From Phycisphaerae bacterium (GTDB lineage: Bacteria > Planctomycetota > Phycisphaerae > UBA1845 > UTPLA1), in NCBI GenBank assembly GCA_023150615.1, contig JAKLKO010000010.1:62001-126000 (forward strand): a stretch of DNA of 64,000 nt, read 5' to 3'. This document shows positions 6,033 to 59,464 of the stretch, piece after piece. Within the stretch, counting starts at the first letter, position 1, and each line of letters begins with the position of its first letter. The notes under the pieces are model-generated. The model was not told the origin of the DNA, did no database searches, and worked only from the letters and a program-made list of their open reading frames with translations. The position numbers and the translations under genes are program-made.

Positions 6033-7077
6033 GCATCAGCACGAACGTCGCGAGCCAGAACTCTGGCCGCGCGAGGAAGGCGGCGATGATGCGATTGCGA
6101 AGCGTCGGCGCGACGGCGCTGGCCTGTGCCGCGCGGATTTTCCGCCCGACGACGTTGATCGCATCCAGCGCCGCGACGAGCTGCGACAACCCGCCGCGGG
6201 CGTTCCGTGGCGCGCGCAGCGCCTGGCGAATCAGCGTCAGGTCCCAGATCACCTCGTCGGCCGCCTGGTAGCGATGCTCCGGCAGCTTCGCCATCGCCCG
6301 CGACACGAACGCCTCCAGCGCCGTGCTGATCTGTGTATTGATGGACCGGATCGGCACCGGGTCCATGCGCCGATGCTGATCGATGACCACGAATGGGTTG
6401 TCCCCCTGGAACGGTGGCCGGCCCGTCGCCATGTTGTACACGACGCAGCCGAGCGAGTAGATGTCCGCTCGTGCATCGACGTCGTCGGCGCCGAGCGCCT
6501 GCTCGGGACTGAGGAACGCCGGCGTGCCGAACACGCGCCCCACGGTCGTCTGGAACGACAGCGATGACGCCACGTACTTCGCCATGCCGAAGTCGGCGAG
6601 CTTCACGTCCCCGCCGCGCGTCACGAGGATGTTCCCCGGCTTGATGTCGCGGTGCAGCACGCCCTGACCGTGCGCGTGCTGCAGTGCCCGCGCCACCGCC
6701 AGCGCGATCTCGACGACTTGCGCTTCGGCCAGCCGCTCCTCCTGGCGGATGAGCCGGTCGAGCGACGGACCATCCACCAGCTCGAACGCAATGTAGTTCA
6801 GCTTCTCGAGGACGCCGTGGTCATAGACCGTCACGATGTTCGGGTGCTTCAGCTTTGATGCCGCCTGGGCCTCGCGCCGGAACCGCGACAGGTACGTGTC
6901 ATCGATGGCGAGCGACCGCGGCAGTATCTTCAGCGCCACATCGCGCTGCGCGACCGTGTCGCGGGCGCGATAGACGATGCCCATCCCGCCGCGGCCGATC
7001 GGCTCGATGATCTCGTAGGGTCCGAGCCGGGCCCGTCCCGGCCGGGCCGGTCGCGATTCGGTCGATTCATCCGGCAT
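5971..7077 (-). CDS. Membrane-anchored Ser/Thr protein kinase (Hanks/PASTA-less PknB type)
   Basis: Complete kinase domain at residues 21-285: glycine loop GRGGMGIVY (28-36), ATP-binding Lys50 in VALKIL, catalytic HRDIKPGN (142-149), DFG (162-164) and activation-segment GTPAFLSPEQ. All residues needed for activity are present. A single membrane helix near residues 335-360 lies almost at the C-terminus and leaves no real extracellular sensor domain. The protein would be a cytoplasmic kinase tethered by its tail. It is transcribed divergently from der across 113 bases and converges on the DUF2723 gene. Targets are unknown. Confidence 0.9.
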   Translation of the reverse strand: MPDESTESRPARPGRARLGPYEIIEPIGRGGMGIVYRARDTVAQRDVALKILPRSLAIDDTYLSRFRREAQAASKLKHPNIVTVYDHGVLEKLNYIAFELVDGPSLDRLIRQEERLAEAQVVEIALAVARALQHAHGQGVLHRDIKPGNILVTRGGDVKLADFGMAKYVASSLSFQTTVGRVFGTPAFLSPEQALGADDVDARADIYSLGCVVYNMATGRPPFQGDNPFVVIDQHRRMDPVPIRSINTQISTALEAFVSRAMAKLPEHRYQAADEVIWDLTLIRQALRAPRNARGGLSQLVAALDAINVVGRKIRAAQASAVAPTLRNRIIAAFLARPEFWLATFVLMLIGAAALALWAGIRLGAASR

Positions 7078-9199: not shown

Positions 9200-10774
9200 A
9201 TGAACTCCCGGCCGCAGCAGTCCGAAAACGTGGAAGCGATGAGCCAGGTGGAGATCGCCTGTCCCCAGTGCCGCGCGGCGTATCGCGTCGCCGCACACCT
9301 CTCCGGCCGGCGCTTCCAGTGTCAGCGCTGCAAGCACGTCTGGCGCTGGGGAACCAAGTCCGACTCGACCGCGTCGGGTCGATCCGATTCCGGCGTCTCG
9401 CGCCAGCAGGACAGCACCGGACTTCCGGTCGCCGGCGCGACGAGTTCGCTGGTCATCGACACGCGCTGGGCCGGGCAGCGCCTCGGACGCTATCAGCTCA
9501 CCGCGCCTCTCGGCCGCGGCGGCATGGGCGTCGTGTGGCGCGCGCATGACCCAACGCTCAAGCGCGACGTCGCGATCAAGATCCTGACCCTGCCCACCAA
9601 CGGCGCATCGAAGTCGTCGCTCTCCAGTGAGCTTTTCCTGCAGGAGGCCCGCGCCGCGGCAAAACTCAATCACCCCGGCGCGATCACGGTCTTCGAGATC
9701 GCCGAGGACCGCGGCCATCAGTTCATCGCCATGGAACTGATGCACGAAGGCACCCTAAAGGACCGCGTCGACAAGTTCGGACCGCTGGAACCGAAGGAAC
9801 TCTTCCGGCTGATGATCCCGCCCGCGCGGGCCCTCGCCCTGGCGCACGAGCGCGGCATCGTTCACCGCGACGTCAAGCCCGGAAACCTGATGTTCGACGA
9901 CCAGGGCCTGCTCAAGCTCGGCGACTTCGGCCTGTCCGATGTCGCCGGCGACCCGACCAGCGCGCGGCTCCGCGGCCGCTCCGTCGGATCGCTCGGATGG
10001 ATCGCTCCCGAAACGGCCCGCGGCGAACCGACGACCGCCGCCAGCGACATCTACGCCTTCGGGCTAGTCCTTTACTACGCACTCACCGCCCGACAGTGGC
10101 TCTACGCCGAACGCCGCAGCGACCTGCTCTCGCTGCACCAGAATCCCCCCGAGCCGGAGCTCCACGACATTCCCGGCCTGTCCAGCGACGGCATGGCCCT
10201 GCTACGCCGCGCGCTCGCCAAGGACCCGGCCGACCGCTTCCAGTCCGCCGACGAACTGGCCACGTTCCTCGAACACTGCGCCTCCGAACCCGACGAAGCG
10301 CACATCCCGCGCGTCGTTGCCGAACGCAGCCAGCGCCGAATCGTCTTCGGCAGCATGGTCGGCGCGATTGCCGTAATCGCCGGCGTCCTCGGGATCATCT
10401 GGGTCTACCTCGGGCGCGATCTTCAGGAGCTGCGCAGCGCGACCGATCGGCTGCTGTCCACACCCGCGCGGACCATCCGCCCGCATGGAACGAAGCCTGC
10501 CGCCGCCGAGCCATCGCCCGCCTCCGTCCGACCCTGGCCCGAGATCATCGACGCGCGATCGCTGCACTTCATCGCCAGCTCCGACGGCACGACCTACCAC
10601 ACGCCGGCGTGCGACGATGCGCGGCGAATCCCGCTCGTGAAACTCGTGAATTACGCATCGCGCGCCGATGCCGAGGCCGCCGGAAAGACACCCTGCGCAA
10701 CTTGCCGCCCGGACAGCCTCCCGGCCGAACACGCCGAGAAGCCCTCGCCGCCCGACCCCGCGCGCCGCGACTGA
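9200..10774 (+). CDS. Ser/Thr protein kinase with N-terminal zinc ribbon and C-terminal Ada-like Cys domain
   Basis: The protein has 524 residues if it starts at 9200; an ATG at 9239 with GGAAG just upstream would give 511. Residues 21-44 form an MJ0042-type zinc ribbon (C21, C24, C41, C44). The kinase domain (about 98-360) has GRGGMGVVW, Lys127 in VAIKIL, HRDVKPGN (222-229), DFG (242-244) and an APET motif, so it should be active. One membrane helix lies at about 381-405. The tail, from about residue 455, has YHTPAC and CATC (H467, C471, C499, C502), resembling the metal-binding fold of Ada. By topology this tail should be outside the cytoplasm, so it may be a metal or redox sensor; this is inference. 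Confidence 0.88.
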   Translation: MNSRPQQSENVEAMSQVEIACPQCRAAYRVAAHLSGRRFQCQRCKHVWRWGTKSDSTASGRSDSGVSRQQDSTGLPVAGATSSLVIDTRWAGQRLGRYQLTAPLGRGGMGVVWRAHDPTLKRDVAIKILTLPTNGASKSSLSSELFLQEARAAAKLNHPGAITVFEIAEDRGHQFIAMELMHEGTLKDRVDKFGPLEPKELFRLMIPPARALALAHERGIVHRDVKPGNLMFDDQGLLKLGDFGLSDVAGDPTSARLRGRSVGSLGWIAPETARGEPTTAASDIYAFGLVLYYALTARQWLYAERRSDLLSLHQNPPEPELHDIPGLSSDGMALLRRALAKDPADRFQSADELATFLEHCASEPDEAHIPRVVAERSQRRIVFGSMVGAIAVIAGVLGIIWVYLGRDLQELRSATDRLLSTPARTIRPHGTKPAAAEPSPASVRPWPEIIDARSLHFIASSDGTTYHTPACDDARRIPLVKLVNYASRADAEAAGKTPCATCRPDSLPAEHAEKPSPPDPARRD

Positions 10775-12796: not shown

Positions 12797-13420
12797 CTAC
12801 GCCGCCGCGAAGTTTGCCAAGACCTTCGCCCCGTTCTCCTGCGACCGATGCGGCAGAAACTGCGTCCCGTACAGGTTGCCCCGCCAGATCACCGCCGAAA
12901 AATCAAACCCGTACCCGCTCCGGCCGATCGTCACGCGCTCGTCCAGCGGCTGCGCGTGCGTCGAGTGATCGAAGTAGAACGAATCGCCGGACTTCAAACC
13001 GCTCAATAATGGACAGTCGTCATTCCAGTGCACGGGCGTCCATCCAACGTGCGGCACCTTGAACTGCCGCCGCACCGGATGGTTCGTGTCCACGTCAAAG
13101 GGAATGACCTTGCCCGGGATGACCCCCAGCCCGGTGTGCTGCCCGCCCTCGTAAATCACATCGAACAGCAGTTGCATGCCCAGGCCGACGCCGAGGTAGG
13201 GAACACCCTCGGCCATCGCCCGCAGAAGCGTCGAAACCAGGCTCCGATCCCGTATCTGCCGCGCGGCGGCCGAGTACGCACCGCTGCACGAGAGTACGAC
13301 CTTCGCCGCCCGCTTCAGCCGATCGGGCGACTGCACGACTTCGCCCTTCGCGCCGACGTCCGCCAGCGCGCGCTCCAGCGGCGGCACGTCCTCCTGTCCG
13401 AAGTCGACGATCGCGATCAT
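12797..13420 (-). CDS. HisH-like class I glutamine amidotransferase paralogue lacking the catalytic triad
   Basis: The 207-residue protein has the size and fold markers of HisH, the glutaminase subunit of imidazole glycerol phosphate synthase. Examples are MIAIVDFG at the start, GMQLLFDVIYEGG, PHVGWTPV and FYFDHSTHAQP. All three catalytic residues are replaced: nucleophile Cys is Gly79 (GVGLGMQ for GVCLGMQ), catalytic His is Leu189 and Glu is His191 (QFLPHRSQ for QFHPEKSQ). The oxyanion segment PGVGAF has become SCSGAY. The frame is intact and codon use is normal, so it is maintained as a protein, but it cannot hydrolyse glutamine by the known mechanism. No hisF lies nearby. It may be a regulatory or scaffolding paralogue; its function is unknown. 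Confidence 0.85.
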   Translation of the reverse strand: MIAIVDFGQEDVPPLERALADVGAKGEVVQSPDRLKRAAKVVLSCSGAYSAAARQIRDRSLVSTLLRAMAEGVPYLGVGLGMQLLFDVIYEGGQHTGLGVIPGKVIPFDVDTNHPVRRQFKVPHVGWTPVHWNDDCPLLSGLKSGDSFYFDHSTHAQPLDERVTIGRSGYGFDFSAVIWRGNLYGTQFLPHRSQENGAKVLANFAAA

Positions 13421-13460: not shown

Positions 13461-14171
13461 CTACGGAGCTCCCGTCGACGACATCTCGTCGCCGCCCGAC
13501 GGCAGCGACGTGTCGTGCTTGATCACGGCGTAGAACTCGACGCGTCGGTTCTGGCGCCGGCTGTCGGCCGACGTGTTCGGCGTCCGCGGACGATAATAGC
13601 TGCAACTGGCCTGCACAATCTTCGACGGCGGGATGCCCGCCCCGATCAGATACCGCGCCGCCGTCAGCGAGCGCTCCGCACCGAGCTGCCAGTTGTCCTT
13701 CCAGCCGCTCTTGCGGATCGGTTCATCGTCCGTGTGGCCGACAACGTAGATGTCCCGGTCGGCGTACCGCGCGCGGATGTCCGACGCGATGCGGTCAAGC
13801 GTGGTCCGACCGGCCGGCTTCAGCGTCGCCTTGCCCGAGTCGAAAAGCACCTCGCCGGGAATGCTGATCATGTCGAAGCCGGGCATGCCGATCCATTTGC
13901 CGTCTTCCGGACCCTGCCCAGCCTTCGCCACCTTCGCCCGCAGGTCGCCGAGTTCCTTGTTGAGGTTCCGGATCGCGGCCTGCGAGTCTTCCTCTCGCTG
14001 CGTCAGATCGTTGATCTGCTGATCCCGGTTGTTGAGGTCCGCGCGGGCCTGATCGAGCTGCTGGGTGAGTTCGTTGATTCGCTTGTCCTTCGCATCCGGC
14101 CCGCAGCCCGGCGCACCAAGCGCCACTGCCGCCAGGCCGAGCGCGAGCATCGCCATCCGCTTGCCTGCCAT
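13461..14171 (-). CDS. OmpA-family lipoprotein with coiled coil (Pal/MotB-like)
   Basis: The start at 14171 is set by GGAGG 8 bases upstream; an ATG at 14186 overlaps that site. Residues 1-23 form a lipoprotein signal with Cys23 (LGAPGC). A coiled coil of about 50 residues follows (INELTQQLDQARADL, IRNLNKELGDLRAKV), and then an OmpA C-like peptidoglycan-binding domain (about 105-220). The domain carries LFDSGKATLKPAG, VVGHTDDEP and RRQNRRVEFYAV, where Asp and Arg bind diaminopimelate. It should be anchored in a membrane and grip the cell wall. The hisH-like gene begins 40 bases after its stop, so the two may be cotranscribed. Confidence 0.85.
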   Translation of the reverse strand: MAGKRMAMLALGLAAVALGAPGCGPDAKDKRINELTQQLDQARADLNNRDQQINDLTQREEDSQAAIRNLNKELGDLRAKVAKAGQGPEDGKWIGMPGFDMISIPGEVLFDSGKATLKPAGRTTLDRIASDIRARYADRDIYVVGHTDDEPIRKSGWKDNWQLGAERSLTAARYLIGAGIPPSKIVQASCSYYRPRTPNTSADSRRQNRRVEFYAVIKHDTSLPSGGDEMSSTGAP

Positions 14172-14458
14172 TGTGAAATCCTCCATCGCTTGAGACTGAC
14201 CGCGCCCCGCGTGATCGGGCTGACGCGCTGGAAATGGTGTAACAAATCAAATCCGACAAGTCAACGAACGCCGAGCATAAACTTCGAATCTGAATGATGA
14301 TTTCGCTGTCGGGCGAGCGAGCCGCCGCGCCACGACCGTGCTTCGCGCACGGAAAGGGTCGCGTGATGGAGGAAAATACTGCTGCGCCCGAGTGTTCGAT
14401 CGTTTCAAGAGTTGCGTTCGTGCGCGACCGAGATATGCACCACATGCGAACATTTTCG
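14172..14458. other. Divergent intergenic region upstream of dnaA
   Basis: With the promoter and leader that follow, about 440 bases separate the OmpA-type gene and dnaA, which diverge. I found no clear cluster of DnaA boxes (TTATCCACA-like) and no gene. A moderately AT-rich patch lies around 14230-14300. It could hold promoters for both genes. Confidence 0.4.
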
Positions 14459-14487: not shown

Positions 14488-14612
14488 GAACGGTGCGAAG
14501 GCACGGTTAGGCTCTAGCGTCTAAGCTTTTGTTTTTCATAAAATTAGGCAACAGACCGGCGGCGCGGTCCCGTGACTGCACTTCGCCCGCGCACTGCCTG
14601 CGGCTCGACCAG

Positions 14613-15938
14613 ATGCAGTCCCCGACCGACCACCCCTGCGATGTCTGGAAGCAGATGGAGCACTACCTCGCCACGCGCCACGCCGGCGTCACCCGCGCGT
14701 GGTTCGCCGACCTCCGCGCCTCCGGCCTCGACCGCGGAGAAATGGTCATCCAGGCCGCGGAAGCCGGCCAGCTCCGATACCTCTGGGAGCACTGCATCCC
14801 CCCATTCATTGAAGCGGCCCAGACCGTCACCGGCCGTCTCGTTACAGTCCGCTTCGTCGGCCCCGACGGCGAGTCCGATGCCCGGATCCGCGGAACCGCA
14901 TCGCACCCGACGGAACCGCTGGGCCTGAACGCGGCGCATACCTTTGAGAACTTCGTCACCGGGCCGTGCAACCGCCTCGCCCACGCCGCGGCCATCGCCG
15001 TCAGCGATACCCCCGGACGCACGTACAACCCGCTCTTCATCCACGGAAGCGCCGGCCTCGGCAAGACGCACCTGCTCCACGCCGTCTGCCACCGCGTGCT
15101 CGACCGCGCGCCGATGCTCCGCACGCTTTACTTGACCTGCGAGATGTTCACCAATCACTTCATCGCCGCCGTCGAGCACGGCACATTGCCCGACTTCCGC
15201 AATCACTACCGACGCACCGACCTGCTCGTCATCGACGACATCCAGTTCCTCTCCATGGCCGAACGCGGCCAGGAGGAGTTCTTCCACACGTTCAACACGC
15301 TCTATCAGGATCAGAAGCAGATCATCCTCTCGGCCGACTGCCAGCCGTCGGAAATCCCCACCCTCGAGGCCCGGCTCACGAGCCGATTCAACTGGGGACT
15401 CGTCGCCGGCATCGATCCACCCTGCATCGAAACGCGCATCGCGATCACGCGCAAGAAGGCCAAGCTCCTGAACCTCGACCTGTCTGACGAGGTGGTCAAG
15501 CTGATCGCCGGCCAGTTCCGCACGAACCTGCGCGAGCTGGAAGGGGCCCTCGTCCGCCTGCACGGCCTGGCCAAGCTCGAAGGGGCCGTCATCGACATCG
15601 ATACGGCCCGACGCGTGCTCGGCGAACTGGTGCCGTCCGCTCCGACGCGCGTCCGCGTCGATGAGATCATCGCGGCCGTCACCCGACGCTTCGGCGTCAA
15701 AACATCCGATCTCCAGGGCCGCCGTCGCAGCCGCTCGATCGCCCTGCCACGGCAGATCTGCATGCACCTGGCCCGGCGCATGACCGCCCACAGCCTTGAG
15801 GAGATCGGCGGGTTCTTCGGCGGCCGCGATCACACCACCGTCCTGCATGCCGACCGCCTCATCGCCGAGCGCAGCACCACCGACGGCGAATTGCGACGGA
15901 CCCTGGAACTGCTTGAATCCGAGCTGCGCCGCGCATGA
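14613..15938 (+). CDS. dnaA: Chromosomal replication initiator DnaA
   Basis: The ATG at 14613 gives 441 residues; the frame also opens at a TTG at 14529, but that extension is unlike DnaA. Domain III has Walker A (HGSAGLGKTHLL), Walker B (DLLVIDDIQFL) and the arginine-rich sensor region. Domain IV carries the DNA-binding signature GGRDHTTVLHADRL. The N-terminal domain I (WKQMEHYLATRH) is short and joined to the ATPase domain by a linker containing NPTEPLGLN-like sequence. DnaA binds DnaA boxes and opens the origin. It is followed by dnaN after 284 bases, the usual order near oriC. Confidence 0.95.
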   Translation: MQSPTDHPCDVWKQMEHYLATRHAGVTRAWFADLRASGLDRGEMVIQAAEAGQLRYLWEHCIPPFIEAAQTVTGRLVTVRFVGPDGESDARIRGTASHPTEPLGLNAAHTFENFVTGPCNRLAHAAAIAVSDTPGRTYNPLFIHGSAGLGKTHLLHAVCHRVLDRAPMLRTLYLTCEMFTNHFIAAVEHGTLPDFRNHYRRTDLLVIDDIQFLSMAERGQEEFFHTFNTLYQDQKQIILSADCQPSEIPTLEARLTSRFNWGLVAGIDPPCIETRIAITRKKAKLLNLDLSDEVVKLIAGQFRTNLRELEGALVRLHGLAKLEGAVIDIDTARRVLGELVPSAPTRVRVDEIIAAVTRRFGVKTSDLQGRRRSRSIALPRQICMHLARRMTAHSLEEIGGFFGGRDHTTVLHADRLIAERSTTDGELRRTLELLESELRRA

Positions 15939-54882: not shown

Positions 54883-56451
54883 ATGACCCTGCTCGTCGCT
54901 TCCGTCGTCGCCAGCAATCCGCACGACGCCGCCGCCGACATCGCGGCCGCCGTCGCCGCCGGCGCCGACGCCGTTGAACTCCGCGTCGACCACCTCGCCG
55001 ACGCCGAAGACGTCGTCATCCGCAGCATCGCCGCCGAGCGACCGCCCGGCGTCCCGCTCATCCTCACGATCCGCCCCGCCGATGAGGGCGGCGCCTGGGA
55101 CGCCGACGAGATGCAGCGGATTGCGCGGCTCATCGCGCTCGGGCCGGCCGCCGACTGGATCGACGTCGAGTTCGCCGCCTGGCAACGCTCCGCCAACATC
55201 CGCCAGAAGATCGGTCTCGCGCGGCGCGACGGCGGCCGCGAGCAACCCGCGCGGATGATCCTCTCGGCCCACGACTTCCGCGGCCGGCCGGTCCGACTGC
55301 TTTCGCAGCTCGCGGCGATGTGCGACGAGAACGAGGCCGATTCCGTCAAGATCGCCTGGATGGCCCGCACCGTCCGTGACAACTTCGAGGCGTTCGATCT
55401 GATGCGCTCCGCGCCGAAGCCGCTGACGGCCATCTGCATGGGCCCGGCGGGTCAACTCTCGCGCATCCTCGGCAGGAAGTTCGGCGCGCATCTGGCCTTT
55501 GCCGCGGCGAACGGCGATCGCCCGGCCGCGCCGGGACAGCTTTCCGTCGAAGAGCTGCTCCGCGATTACCGCTGGTGCGAGATCAGCGCCGACACCGAGC
55601 TGTACGGCGTGATCGGCGATCCGCTCGAGCACTCGCTCAGTCCCGCGGTGCACAACGCCGCGTTCGCCGCGCTCGGACTCAACGCCGTGTACGTGCCCAT
55701 CCCTGTGCCGGCCGGCTACGAATCGCTCAAGGCGCTGCTGGTCGAGATCCGCGGATCGCCCTGGCTCGGATTCCGCGGGTTCAGCGTCACGATCCCGCAC
55801 AAGGAAGATGCGCTGCGATGTCTGCACGACGCGGGCGGGGAGGCCGAGCCGCTCTGCGGCGAGATCGGCGCAGTCAACACGCTTTGCGTGCGCGACGACG
55901 GCCGCCTCTTCGGCGCGAACACGGACGCCCCTGCCGCGATGGACGTGATCGACGAGCTGCTCGGCCGGCCGGGCGGACCGCTCTCGGGATTGCGGTGTCT
56001 GGTCCTCGGCGCGGGCGGCGTCGCGCGGGCCATCGTCGCCGGACTTCGCGCCCGCGCGGCGGAGGTCTGCATCGCGAATCGAACCGGGGCGCGGGCCGGC
56101 GAGCTTGCGTCGGAGTTCGCGGCCCGTGCCGTGGCCTGGGACGATCGCCTCGCCGAGTCATACGACCTGCTCGTCAACTGCACGAGCGTCGGCCTCTGGC
56201 CGCAGTCCGATCAGTCGCCAATGCCGGCCGAGGCGCTCCGCGCCGGGGCGGCCGTCTTCGACACGATCTACCGCCCGGCCGAGACGCGGCTGGTCGCCGA
56301 TGCCCGCGGGCGGGGGCTGCGGGCCGAGGGTGGCCTGTCGATGTTCCTGCGGCAGGCCGCGCGGCAGTTCGAGCTGTGGACGGGGCGGGCGGCGCCGCTT
56401 GACCGGATGTCGTCCACGGCCGCGGCCAGGCTGGGCGGCGATGCGTCCTGA
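54883..56451 (+). CDS. Bifunctional 3-dehydroquinate dehydratase (type I)/shikimate dehydrogenase
   Basis: 522 residues. Residues 1-225 are type I AroD: ELRVDHL, the catalytic His in SAHDF, the Schiff-base Lys in VKIAWMA. From about 235 follows AroE: GVIGDPLEHSLSPAVHN, VTIPHKE with the catalytic Lys, NTLCVRDDGRLFGANTDAPAAM and the NADP loop LGAGGVARAI. The order AroD-AroE matches the fused enzymes of plants and some bacteria. It carries out two consecutive shikimate-pathway steps. aroK lies two genes downstream, so this may be a small shikimate operon interrupted by a phosphoesterase. Confidence 0.93.
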   Translation: MTLLVASVVASNPHDAAADIAAAVAAGADAVELRVDHLADAEDVVIRSIAAERPPGVPLILTIRPADEGGAWDADEMQRIARLIALGPAADWIDVEFAAWQRSANIRQKIGLARRDGGREQPARMILSAHDFRGRPVRLLSQLAAMCDENEADSVKIAWMARTVRDNFEAFDLMRSAPKPLTAICMGPAGQLSRILGRKFGAHLAFAAANGDRPAAPGQLSVEELLRDYRWCEISADTELYGVIGDPLEHSLSPAVHNAAFAALGLNAVYVPIPVPAGYESLKALLVEIRGSPWLGFRGFSVTIPHKEDALRCLHDAGGEAEPLCGEIGAVNTLCVRDDGRLFGANTDAPAAMDVIDELLGRPGGPLSGLRCLVLGAGGVARAIVAGLRARAAEVCIANRTGARAGELASEFAARAVAWDDRLAESYDLLVNCTSVGLWPQSDQSPMPAEALRAGAAVFDTIYRPAETRLVADARGRGLRAEGGLSMFLRQAARQFELWTGRAAPLDRMSSTAAARLGGDAS

Positions 56452-56653
56452 TGGGACGCGCCGCCCGTGTCGCTCGGGTGTTCTGCGGGTTGTCGTGTGG
56501 ATCGGGTCATGGTACGACACGGTTCCATCAGATAGCATGGCGGATCGGCGCGGTCATGATTGAGGATACCGCCGCACAGGGCTCGTGGCGGCGAGCGGGC
56601 GCAGACGCGTCGGGCCACGCGATTTTGGGAATGGGCCGAGGACCGGGCGGCAG

Positions 56654-57511
56654 ATGATTCTGTTGTTCAGTTCCGATTTTCACGGCAGCGCGCGACATTA
56701 CGACGCGCTCAGCGAGTCCATCCAGTCCATCCGGCCAGCCCTCGTCATCCTCGGCGGCGATCTGTTCCCGGATGACCCGTCCGAGAAGCCCGACGAGATG
56801 GGCAAGCACCAGCCCCTCTTCGTCCTCGAGCACTTTCGCACCTGGCTCACCGGCGTCCTGAAGGCGTCGCCCGCGATTCAGGTTCTTGCGATCTTCGGCA
56901 ACCACGACTGGATGAGCACCGCCGCGGCCATGGAGGAACTCGCTCGTCAGCAGCCGCGACTGATCCTCCTCCAGCACCAGCACGCCGTCGGGTTCGGGGG
57001 CGTTGCCTTCGTCGGTTACTCGCGGACGCCGCCGACACCTTGGTACGTCAAGGATTTTGAACGGCTCGACATGCCGCACGATCCGCCGCCTTTCATGGGC
57101 GGCGCGCGTTGGGACGCGCGCTATAACCGCGCGTCACAGGCCCCGGCGAAGAAGCTCTACGCCGCCTATCCGAGCATCGCCGAGGAACTGGAGAAGATGA
57201 TCCAGCCGCAGCCGCCCTGGGTCTTCGTCGCGCACGCGCCGCCGCACGACACGGCGCTCGACCGCAGCTATCGCCGCGAGTCCCTCGGCAGCCGGGGCGT
57301 CCGCGCCGCCATCGAAAAGCGACAACCGATGCTTTCCCTCCACGGGCACATCCATGAATCGCCCGAGGTCACCGGCCAGTACCGCCAGACGCTCGGGCAG
57401 ACCGTGGCCGTCAACGTCGGACAACAGACGCGCGTCGTGTGCCAGGCCGTCATCGAGATTGACCCGGCGGCGGGGCGCGTCGTACGGGTGGAACGCAGGC
57501 AGTCCCAGTGA
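56654..57511 (+). CDS. Metallophosphoesterase (calcineurin-like)
   Basis: 285 residues from the ATG at 56654 (MILLFSSDFHG). The five metal-binding motifs are present: DFH, GGDLFPD, GNHD, AHAPP and HGHIHE. They bind two metal ions for hydrolysis of a phosphoester. There is no signal peptide, so it is cytoplasmic, and the substrate is unknown. Its stop overlaps the GTG of aroK (GTGA at 57508-57511), indicating coupled translation between two otherwise unrelated functions. Confidence 0.88.
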   Translation: MILLFSSDFHGSARHYDALSESIQSIRPALVILGGDLFPDDPSEKPDEMGKHQPLFVLEHFRTWLTGVLKASPAIQVLAIFGNHDWMSTAAAMEELARQQPRLILLQHQHAVGFGGVAFVGYSRTPPTPWYVKDFERLDMPHDPPPFMGGARWDARYNRASQAPAKKLYAAYPSIAEELEKMIQPQPPWVFVAHAPPHDTALDRSYRRESLGSRGVRAAIEKRQPMLSLHGHIHESPEVTGQYRQTLGQTVAVNVGQQTRVVCQAVIEIDPAAGRVVRVERRQSQ

Positions 57512-58044
57512 ATCTCGTGCTCGTCGGTCCGCGCGGAAGCGGGAAGACGACGATCGGCCGACTCCTCGCCGATCGACTCGGCCGGGCGTTTTTCGACACC
57601 GACGACCTTGTCGCCGCGACCGCCGGCGCGACGCTTCGCGAGATCTTCGCGCGTTTCGGCGAGGCGCGGTTTCGTGATCTGGAATCGGAGGTGATCCGGT
57701 CGCTGGCGGAGCGTGATTGCTGCGTGATCGCGCTCGGCGGCGGTGCGCTGCTGCGGCCGGCGAACAGCGAAGTGCTTCGTCCGCGGGCGACGTTTGTATG
57801 GCTTCGCGCACCGATTGGGACGCTCGTGCGACGCGTGATGGAGGATCCCCAGAGCGCCGCACAGCGGCCGCCGCTGACGTCGCATGGGCCGCACGAGGAG
57901 ATGGCGCGGATCGTCGCGGACCGGGAGCCGCTGTATCTGGCCGTGGCCGATCGGATCGTCGAGACGGGCGATCGATCCCCCGCGGAGATCGCCGGCGAGA
58001 TCGAGGGTTGGTGGCTTCAATCGGAGGCCGGCGGGCGTGGGTGA
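57508..58044 (+). CDS. aroK: Shikimate kinase
   Basis: 178 residues from GTG. P-loop GPRGSGKTT (7-15), substrate-binding Asp in FFDTDD (30-33), RFRDLE with its Arg and ALGGGAL (75-81) are all standard. The lid region contains RPPL. It phosphorylates shikimate with ATP, the step after AroE. The start overlaps the phosphoesterase stop, and its end overlaps the prepilin peptidase start by about 8 bases. Confidence 0.93.
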   Translation: MNLVLVGPRGSGKTTIGRLLADRLGRAFFDTDDLVAATAGATLREIFARFGEARFRDLESEVIRSLAERDCCVIALGGGALLRPANSEVLRPRATFVWLRAPIGTLVRRVMEDPQSAAQRPPLTSHGPHEEMARIVADREPLYLAVADRIVETGDRSPAEIAGEIEGWWLQSEAGGRG

Positions 58045-59464
58045 TGAGGTGTCGCTGTCGCCGGGCCTGCTGGTGCTTCCGGTCGCGCTGCTCGGGGCGA
58101 TCGTCGGGAGCTTCCTGAACGTCGTCATCCATCGACTGCCGCGCGGTCTGTCGATCCGCGCGCCGCGCTGGTCGTACTGTCCGTACTGCAAACACGGCGT
58201 GCGCCCGATCGACAACGTCCCGGTCGCGAGCTGGCTGCGGCTCGGCGGGCGCTGCCGCGATTGCGGCGCGCCGATCTCGATCATCTATCCCGTTGTTGAG
58301 CTTCTCTCGGCGCTCGCGTTCGTACTGGTCTGGGACGCGCTGTTCATCGGCCGCGTGCTGGCCGGGATCGGCGATGTGGCGACCGACTGGCCGATCGCCC
58401 TCGCGTATCTCGCGCTCTTCGCGGGTTTGCTCGCGTGTTCCGCGATGGACATCGAGGAGTACCTGATCGACGTCCGGGTCACAAACGCGGTATTCCTCGC
58501 CGGCGTCGTGCTGCACGCGCTGGCCGGGTCGCTCGATGCCGGCGTGGCGGTCGGGGGCCTCGGACCGATCGCAACGATGGCGGGGATCCTCCTGCTGGTC
58601 GGTTGGTGGGTGTCGCCGTGGCGGGATCGTGGCGGAGACTCGGAAGCAGTCGACGAGTCGGCCGGCGCCGAGGCTGCATTATCGACACCGCATGGGCTGT
58701 CGGCCGCGCAGGCCATGCCAACCACCGTCGCGCCAGGATCGCCCGTCTGGATCGTGTTGCTGACGCTGCTCGTCATCGGCATCGGCGGGTTCGCGGCGTC
58801 GGGGTCATGGGCCGATCGCTGGACGCTTTCGGCCTCGCAGCAGCGGGCGCTGGCGGGTCTGTTCGTCTTTCTCGTCGTGCTGATCCTGTCGGGCATGCAC
58901 CATCGCGCGAGCGACGTCGTCATGGAGGCGACGATCCAGCGCGAGCAGCCGCGGGCGCGACGCGTCGCGTTGCGCGAGGCGGTCCAGATGCTGCCGGCCA
59001 TTGCGCTCGCCGCGGCGGCGCTGGGCTGGGTCGCCTACACGAATCGCAGCGCGTGGGCCTGGTCGGATGTGCCGGACGTGCTCGGGCCGCGCGCCGACGG
59101 CGCGCTGATCGGCGGCGCAACGGCGTTGGCCTGCGGCGCGCTGGCGGCGGCGATCGGCTGGTTCGTGCGGATTTTCTTTACGCTGCTGTTCGGCAAGGAG
59201 GCATACGGCGTCGGCGACATTCACATCATGGCGGCGATCGGCGCGGTAGCGGGAATCGGACTCGTACTGATCTCGTTCTTCCTCGGCGCGGTGCTGGCGC
59301 TGGTTGGCGTGGTTGCGTGCGCGGTGCGAAAATCGAACCGGACGCTGCCGTTCGGCCCGTGGCTGGCGCTCGGCGCGCTCGCCGGGTTGTGGATCCACGA
59401 TCCGGTCGTGCGGCACGTCGAGCGCAGCATCGAGGGATTGCGATTGCTCTGGTCGGGCGGATAG
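58037..59464 (+). CDS. pilD: Type IV prepilin peptidase (A24) with long central insertion
   Basis: 475 residues from GTG at 58037 (58049 is possible). The N-terminal zinc region has two CxxC pairs (C48, C51, C73, C76), and the loop reads YCPYCKHGVRPIDNVP. The two catalytic Asp are D138 (MDIEEYLID) and D394 (GVGDIHIM). They lie about 256 residues apart instead of about 65. The roughly 190 added residues hold a Ser/Ala-rich loop (about 195-235) and extra membrane helices. The enzyme removes leaders from prepilins of type IV pili or type II secretion and methylates them. No pilin gene is in the window. Confidence 0.88.
   Translation: MGDEVSLSPGLLVLPVALLGAIVGSFLNVVIHRLPRGLSIRAPRWSYCPYCKHGVRPIDNVPVASWLRLGGRCRDCGAPISIIYPVVELLSALAFVLVWDALFIGRVLAGIGDVATDWPIALAYLALFAGLLACSAMDIEEYLIDVRVTNAVFLAGVVLHALAGSLDAGVAVGGLGPIATMAGILLLVGWWVSPWRDRGGDSEAVDESAGAEAALSTPHGLSAAQAMPTTVAPGSPVWIVLLTLLVIGIGGFAASGSWADRWTLSASQQRALAGLFVFLVVLILSGMHHRASDVVMEATIQREQPRARRVALREAVQMLPAIALAAAALGWVAYTNRSAWAWSDVPDVLGPRADGALIGGATALACGALAAAIGWFVRIFFTLLFGKEAYGVGDIHIMAAIGAVAGIGLVLISFFLGAVLALVGVVACAVRKSNRTLPFGPWLALGALAGLWIHDPVVRHVERSIEGLRLLWSGG

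Follow-up and report, generated by a model that had tools for sequence, protein, structure and literature searches.

A predicted HisH-derived pseudoenzyme maintained in a family of Planctomycetota in which most genomes lack a detectable histidine pathway

The window, a 64,000-nucleotide stretch of DNA from a member of the Planctomycetota, carries on its minus strand at 12797..13420 an open reading frame for a putative HisH-derived pseudoenzyme of 207 amino acids, with an ATG start and zero internal stops. Its translation reaches 149.6 bits with the HisH equivalog model TIGR01855, above the cut-off of 105.4, and matches the Pfam GATase model of class I amidotransferases. An AlphaFold model predicted from its alignment has a mean pLDDT of 92.6 and a pTM of 0.90, and the closest solved fold is that of Vibrio cholerae HisH (4gud; TM-score 0.89, 31% identity), with further HisH proteins next in rank. 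With the landmarks GMQLL, PHVGW and FYFDHS all kept, the original prediction of an intact frame of normal length and a preserved HisH fold is borne out, and this frame appears to be held by selection.

On the same strand and 40 bp upstream lies a gene for an OmpA-type lipoprotein (13461..14186, minus), whose product has a lipobox (...GAPGC), a coiled coil and an OmpA domain that scores 60.6 bits with the Pfam OmpA model, so the lipoprotein neighbour noticed earlier is real. Next to this pair is dnaA (14529..15938, plus strand), followed by dnaN and gyrB, all recognized as open reading frames. A cluster of aroDE, a metallophosphoesterase gene, aroK and pilD lies at 54883..59464 on the plus strand, where it was located by tblastn from a relative (G001) and from its open reading frames. 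Two serine/threonine-kinase-like regions are found near each other at 6250-7029 and 9200-10774, and the second of these follows the HisH-derived gene, on the opposite strand, in several relatives.

Alignment with intact relatives places Gly79 (13184..13186) at the position of the catalytic Cys, in a segment that reads LGVGLGMQ versus LGICLG[LM]Q in active HisH. The family alignment places Leu189 (12854..12856) and His191 (12848..12850) at the positions of the catalytic His and Glu, turning the QFHPE motif into QFLPH. Residues 44-47 (13280..13291) read SCSG at the site of the oxyanion motif PGVG, which is near-invariant in active relatives; all four of these features are on the minus strand. 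The window protein thus has no member of the Cys-His-Glu triad of HisH, and the changes that had been read from its sequence, at the nucleophile, in QFHPE and in the oxyanion loop, are all confirmed. Since established class I amidotransferase chemistry needs the missing residues, we infer that the protein would be unable to free ammonia from glutamine. HisH carrying C84S or C84A has been used as an inactive or strongly reduced form, and such forms still bind glutamine (PMC8115485).

The taxonomic family of the window comprises 17 genomes, several of which are deposited as Phycisphaerae, and 13 of these contain a version of the gene without the catalytic Cys and His, hereafter a dead copy. The Cys position is occupied by Gly in 10 copies, Ser in 2 and Ala in 1, the His position by Leu in 12 and Asp in 1, and PGVG is gone from 13/13. 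Because every one of these family members has lost both Cys and His, the changes are not sequencing errors of one genome. Conservation of the substitutions among relatives, proposed earlier as a check, holds for Cys and His, but not for Glu, which is kept in 9 of the 13 copies. Likewise, the joint loss of His and Glu that had been pointed out is present in the window copy and in three others (L004, L009, L024), while the remaining nine keep the Glu.

The assembly that contains the window is 4.10 Mb in size, 99.62% complete and 2.04% contaminated. A search of it with the HisH profile found no second HisH; the next matches reach at most 18.5 bits, one of them the GMP synthase GuaA, whose triad is intact, and another a distinct amidotransferase-like protein. 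A 10.8-bit match (L035) was rejected as HisH, there being no recognizable amidotransferase at that place. Profile searches of the same genome also gave no match to HisA/HisF (PF00977), and with it no encoded HisF partner for a HisH, and none to HisD, HisG or HisB/IGP dehydratase. These absences come from profile searches and recur with four models and in many genomes, most of which are metagenome assemblies, and the his-gene models were positive in 13-14 of 14 control genomes. Matches to HisD, HisG and IGP dehydratase were missing from one control genome, which bears the name Bacillus subtilis; the species has all three, and the assembly used may lack the operon. Since the his genes are absent, the host cell would be expected to need external histidine. 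The original prediction had described a HisH paralogue and had proposed looking for a second, active HisH and for HisF. As neither is found and the rest of the pathway is missing as well, the gene is an orphan, the vertically inherited hisH, and not a paralogue.

Phylogenetic analysis places the 13 dead copies in a single clade with a support of 100/100. They span eight genera, all have open frames, and they share 36-57% amino-acid identity with the window protein. In 11 of the 13 genomes with a dead copy, there is no detectable histidine pathway, and profile searches for HisA/HisF, HisD, HisG and IGP dehydratase were negative in 14 of the 17 family genomes, that of the window included; HisG was also not found in G006. 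Weak PF00977 matches in relatives were considered as a hidden HisF, and the two inspected are IMP dehydrogenase. G006 and G014 contain a dead copy together with a separate his cluster, the intact HisH of which is 28% identical to the window protein, and G007 contains an intact his cluster and no dead copy. The intact HisH sequences of these three genomes (L059, L060, L061) fall outside the dead clade and group with distant HisH, which suggests that the histidine pathway was regained by transfer after its loss. A horizontal origin of the dead copy itself was rejected: the copies form one clade next to an ancestral ompA neighbor, and the intact copies of G006, G014 and G007 branch elsewhere. The assemblies of G004 and G011 are too incomplete to inform on the dead copy.

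An initial scan limited to the proteins of named genomes was negative. In a class-wide search of 298 genomes, dead copies scored 248-334 bits and all other sequences at most 235 bits, and the Cys, His and Glu are kept in 18/18 of the best class-wide loci from outside the family. This score gap and these intact triads suggest that, as far as the search extended, the dead type is confined to the window's family. Of 101 genomes sampled from the order, just 33 have HisD. Loss of histidine synthesis thus appears common in the order, and outside the window's family HisH is mostly undetectable too.

The gene order of relatives bears on where the dead copy came from. In 12/12 contiguous family loci, the dead hisH is immediately preceded by an ompA gene with the same orientation, and in the 13th (G003) a contig break splits the pair with matching ends, consistent with the same order. 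Most of the family has the arrangement aroDE - metallophosphoesterase - aroK - pilD - ompA - dead hisH, and relatives with an active HisH have pilD-ompA-hisH-hisA (G018, G042, G021, L080, L087) or ompA-hisH-hisA (L082); in several other genomes with an active HisH, ompA is elsewhere. By gene order, the dead copy is thus shown to occupy the position of the active hisH of relatives. In the window and in G010 the pair stands beside dnaA, while the remaining family members have other neighbors there. The presence of the aroDE-pilD cluster without the pair at 54883-59464 marks a rearrangement between that cluster and the dnaA region. Since the cluster lies without the pair and the pair lies beside dnaA, the two genes evidently left the pilD cluster as a unit, and the pair has been kept while its surroundings changed. 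By the same comparison, the association with ompA is old, and the view that the gene had been relocated away from his genes to a lipoprotein gene does not hold, since the ompA link is already present in active relatives.

The adjacency pattern favors a shared transcript of ompA and hisH. However, as this order is ancestral, adjacency is no proof of shared function, and the link to ompA may be one of operon carriage only. The two genes are also not co-dependent: in G007 and G009 ompA is kept at its locus and the dead copy is missing from it, which indicates that some species can do without the dead copy and that ompA works in its absence.

We consider it likely, with good but not complete confidence, that an ancestral hisH lost its glutaminase function, outlived its pathway and has since been constrained for a new noncatalytic job. 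The loss of catalysis, the orphaning and the constraint are each well supported by sequence comparison. That the role is new and noncatalytic, as had been proposed, is likely given the combination of missing catalytic residues, a frame maintained by selection, conserved Cys and His losses and a lipoprotein neighbor.

We compared residues between the 13 dead sequences and 16 active ones. The former HisF-contact loop, residues 7-17 (13370..13402, minus strand), is nearly invariant in active proteins as YGMGNLRSVQK, with residues 9-17 identical in all 16 active relatives. In the dead clade these residues are scattered, and GMGN is gone from 13/13 copies. In T. maritima HisH, Asn12 of this loop contacts Asp98 of HisF and the triad Glu (PMC8115485). 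Dead copies have also lost the residues equivalent to T. maritima Leu85, Thr142/Tyr143 and Lys181, in an approximate numbering that serves as a guide only. Core positions are kept (GLG 97-99, F150, P158, F188, P190, S193 and G197). Two active HisH proteins from one genus, L027 and L028 (G039 and G054), have insertions rich in proline and serine; those of L027 are in the loop preceding GLG, and those of L028 lie further along, ahead of the PHMGW motif.

The dead HisH could be a structural or regulatory subunit docked to a different synthase without producing ammonia. In favor of this, HisH is by nature the partner of another protein, and the S2 domain of human CPS1 is an inactive, glutaminase-like domain that was kept after loss of its catalytic Cys (PMC4655335). 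CPS1 thus resembles our case in retaining a class I amidotransferase-type domain without the catalytic Cys. However, it is fused to a working synthase, whereas the window protein has been left with neither a synthase partner nor any of the pathway. No conserved synthase gene adjoins the dead copies, ompA being the sole constant neighbor, and the docking loop is scattered rather than switched to a new conserved sequence. We therefore regard a subunit role as rather improbable, although it fares best among the alternatives.

The former glutamine pocket shows consistent switches across the dead clade: Cys to Gly, Gln83 to His in most copies, Val151 to Asp, Glu or Gln, His189 to Leu and Ala185 to Gly. 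R57, D58, L159 and G185 are invariant in the clade, while in active HisH the positions of D58 and L159 are variable and position 185 is Ala. A re-lined pocket of this kind might have acquired a new catalytic activity, involving His83, Asp151, His95 and the PLD motif at 158-160. In agreement with this, Gln83 is replaced by His in 11 of the 13 copies, an Asp, Glu or Gln is found at 151 in all of them, and H95 is invariant alongside R57, D58 and L159. No complete new catalytic set is invariant, however, since the window protein retains Gln83, G010 has Gln151, and L025 and L026 lack His152 and the PHxGW segment. QHTGLG is not a gain of the dead clade, since some active relatives (L080, L082, L086, L087) carry it, and its presence there also speaks against a new activity. 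New catalysis is accordingly an unlikely outcome, well behind a subunit role.

A third possibility is that the function was lost with the pathway and that the gene is a slowly decaying relic, persisting by chance as it trails ompA in a transcript. The dead clade is on longer branches than active HisH in the tree, indicating faster evolution, the copy has been lost outright in G007 and G009, and most catalytic and HisF-contact positions have drifted, all of which would fit decay. Against this stand the substitution rates, for which we used two unsaturated within-genus pairs of the dead clade. In G006/G014, dN is 0.03, dS is 0.43-0.55 and dN/dS is 0.06-0.08, and in G002/G013 dN/dS is 0.06-0.10. 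Nonsynonymous changes per site are fewer than synonymous ones with Fisher p of about 7e-27 and 4e-30 for the two pairs, both below 1e-25, and dN/dS of the adjoining ompA gene in the same pairs is 0.02-0.05. Simulated drift left a stop-free frame in a fraction of 0.16 at 10% change and 0.016 at 25%, while all 13 real frames are open at the divergence given above. The invariance of R57, D58, L159 and G185 also argues against decay, as does the order at large, where other lineages without hisD are mostly without detectable HisH too. Judged from these comparisons, the dead HisH is evidently under purifying selection, which the faster evolution of the clade suggests is weaker than that on the active enzyme. 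Catalytic loss across a whole clade followed by purifying selection, here seen in two pairs, is what would be expected of a pseudoenzyme, and a relic is slightly less probable again than new catalysis.

A dead HisH might still serve as a working subunit alongside a HisF missed by our searches, given that in known IGP synthases HisF can run on free ammonia by itself and the inactivity of HisH would then be tolerable. We consider this very remote, since the HisA/HisF, HisG, HisB and HisD models stayed blank in a 99.6%-complete genome and the HisF contact loop is lost.

The pattern of lost, kept and switched positions is what would be expected if the demands of hydrolysis and HisF docking had been released and another use of the scaffold imposed. 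Under the reading we prefer, an ancestral single-copy hisH lost its pathway, its HisF partner and its catalytic residues; the sequences show that residues for glutamine hydrolysis and HisF docking have decayed while the fold core is retained. The dead HisH may now be a binding or regulatory protein that uses its re-lined pocket or a surface of the HisH fold. The consistent re-lining of the former glutamine pocket makes it probable that a small ligand or a stretch of protein binds there. If, as seems probable, the gene shares a transcript with the OmpA-type lipoprotein gene, the product could be a cytosolic sensor or adaptor tied to a cell envelope programme. We propose this link to the envelope only tentatively, and the fuller scenario, in which a pseudo-glutaminase family left after pathway loss senses a small molecule in the re-lined pocket and acts with the lipoprotein in an envelope programme, is a shade more speculative still.

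Compared with known HisH proteins (4gud, 1gpw, 7ac8), the window protein is alike in fold, length, the three landmark motifs (GMQLL, PHVGW and FYF.HS), a TIGR01855 score above the cut-off and its ancestral place after ompA. It differs from them in having no catalytic Cys or His, no PGVG, no HisF-contact loop and no HisF in its genome; in four dead copies including this one, the Glu is lost as well. HisH2/HisF2-type paralogues, which are associated with lipopolysaccharide sugar genes, are similar in being HisH-type proteins outside histidine synthesis. Those are glutaminase-synthase pairs, however, whereas the window protein is a lone ortholog without the triad, and membership of that group was rejected on two grounds, the lack of a paired HisF and the gene's ancestral hisH position. 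Actinomycetaceae that lost histidine and tryptophan genes have retained PriA/HisA proteins (PMC5404923). These too are histidine-pathway proteins kept and modified after gene loss, but they stay enzymes with altered specificity under relaxed selection, whereas the window protein has lost its catalytic residues and is still constrained.

A nonexhaustive search of the open literature found no description of a HisH pseudoenzyme. All 13 dead copies match TIGR01855, which means that automatic annotation can report a working HisH from a dead copy even where the pathway is missing. Since the window protein exceeds the cut-off, the standard model would label it a functional HisH, an annotation trap that would mask the loss of histidine synthesis. 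Pseudoenzymes usually arise by duplication, with an active copy remaining, or inside a multidomain enzyme. A single-copy biosynthetic gene that appears to remain under selection without its pathway, its partner or its catalytic residues would offer a natural setting in which to test the reuse of a glutaminase scaffold.
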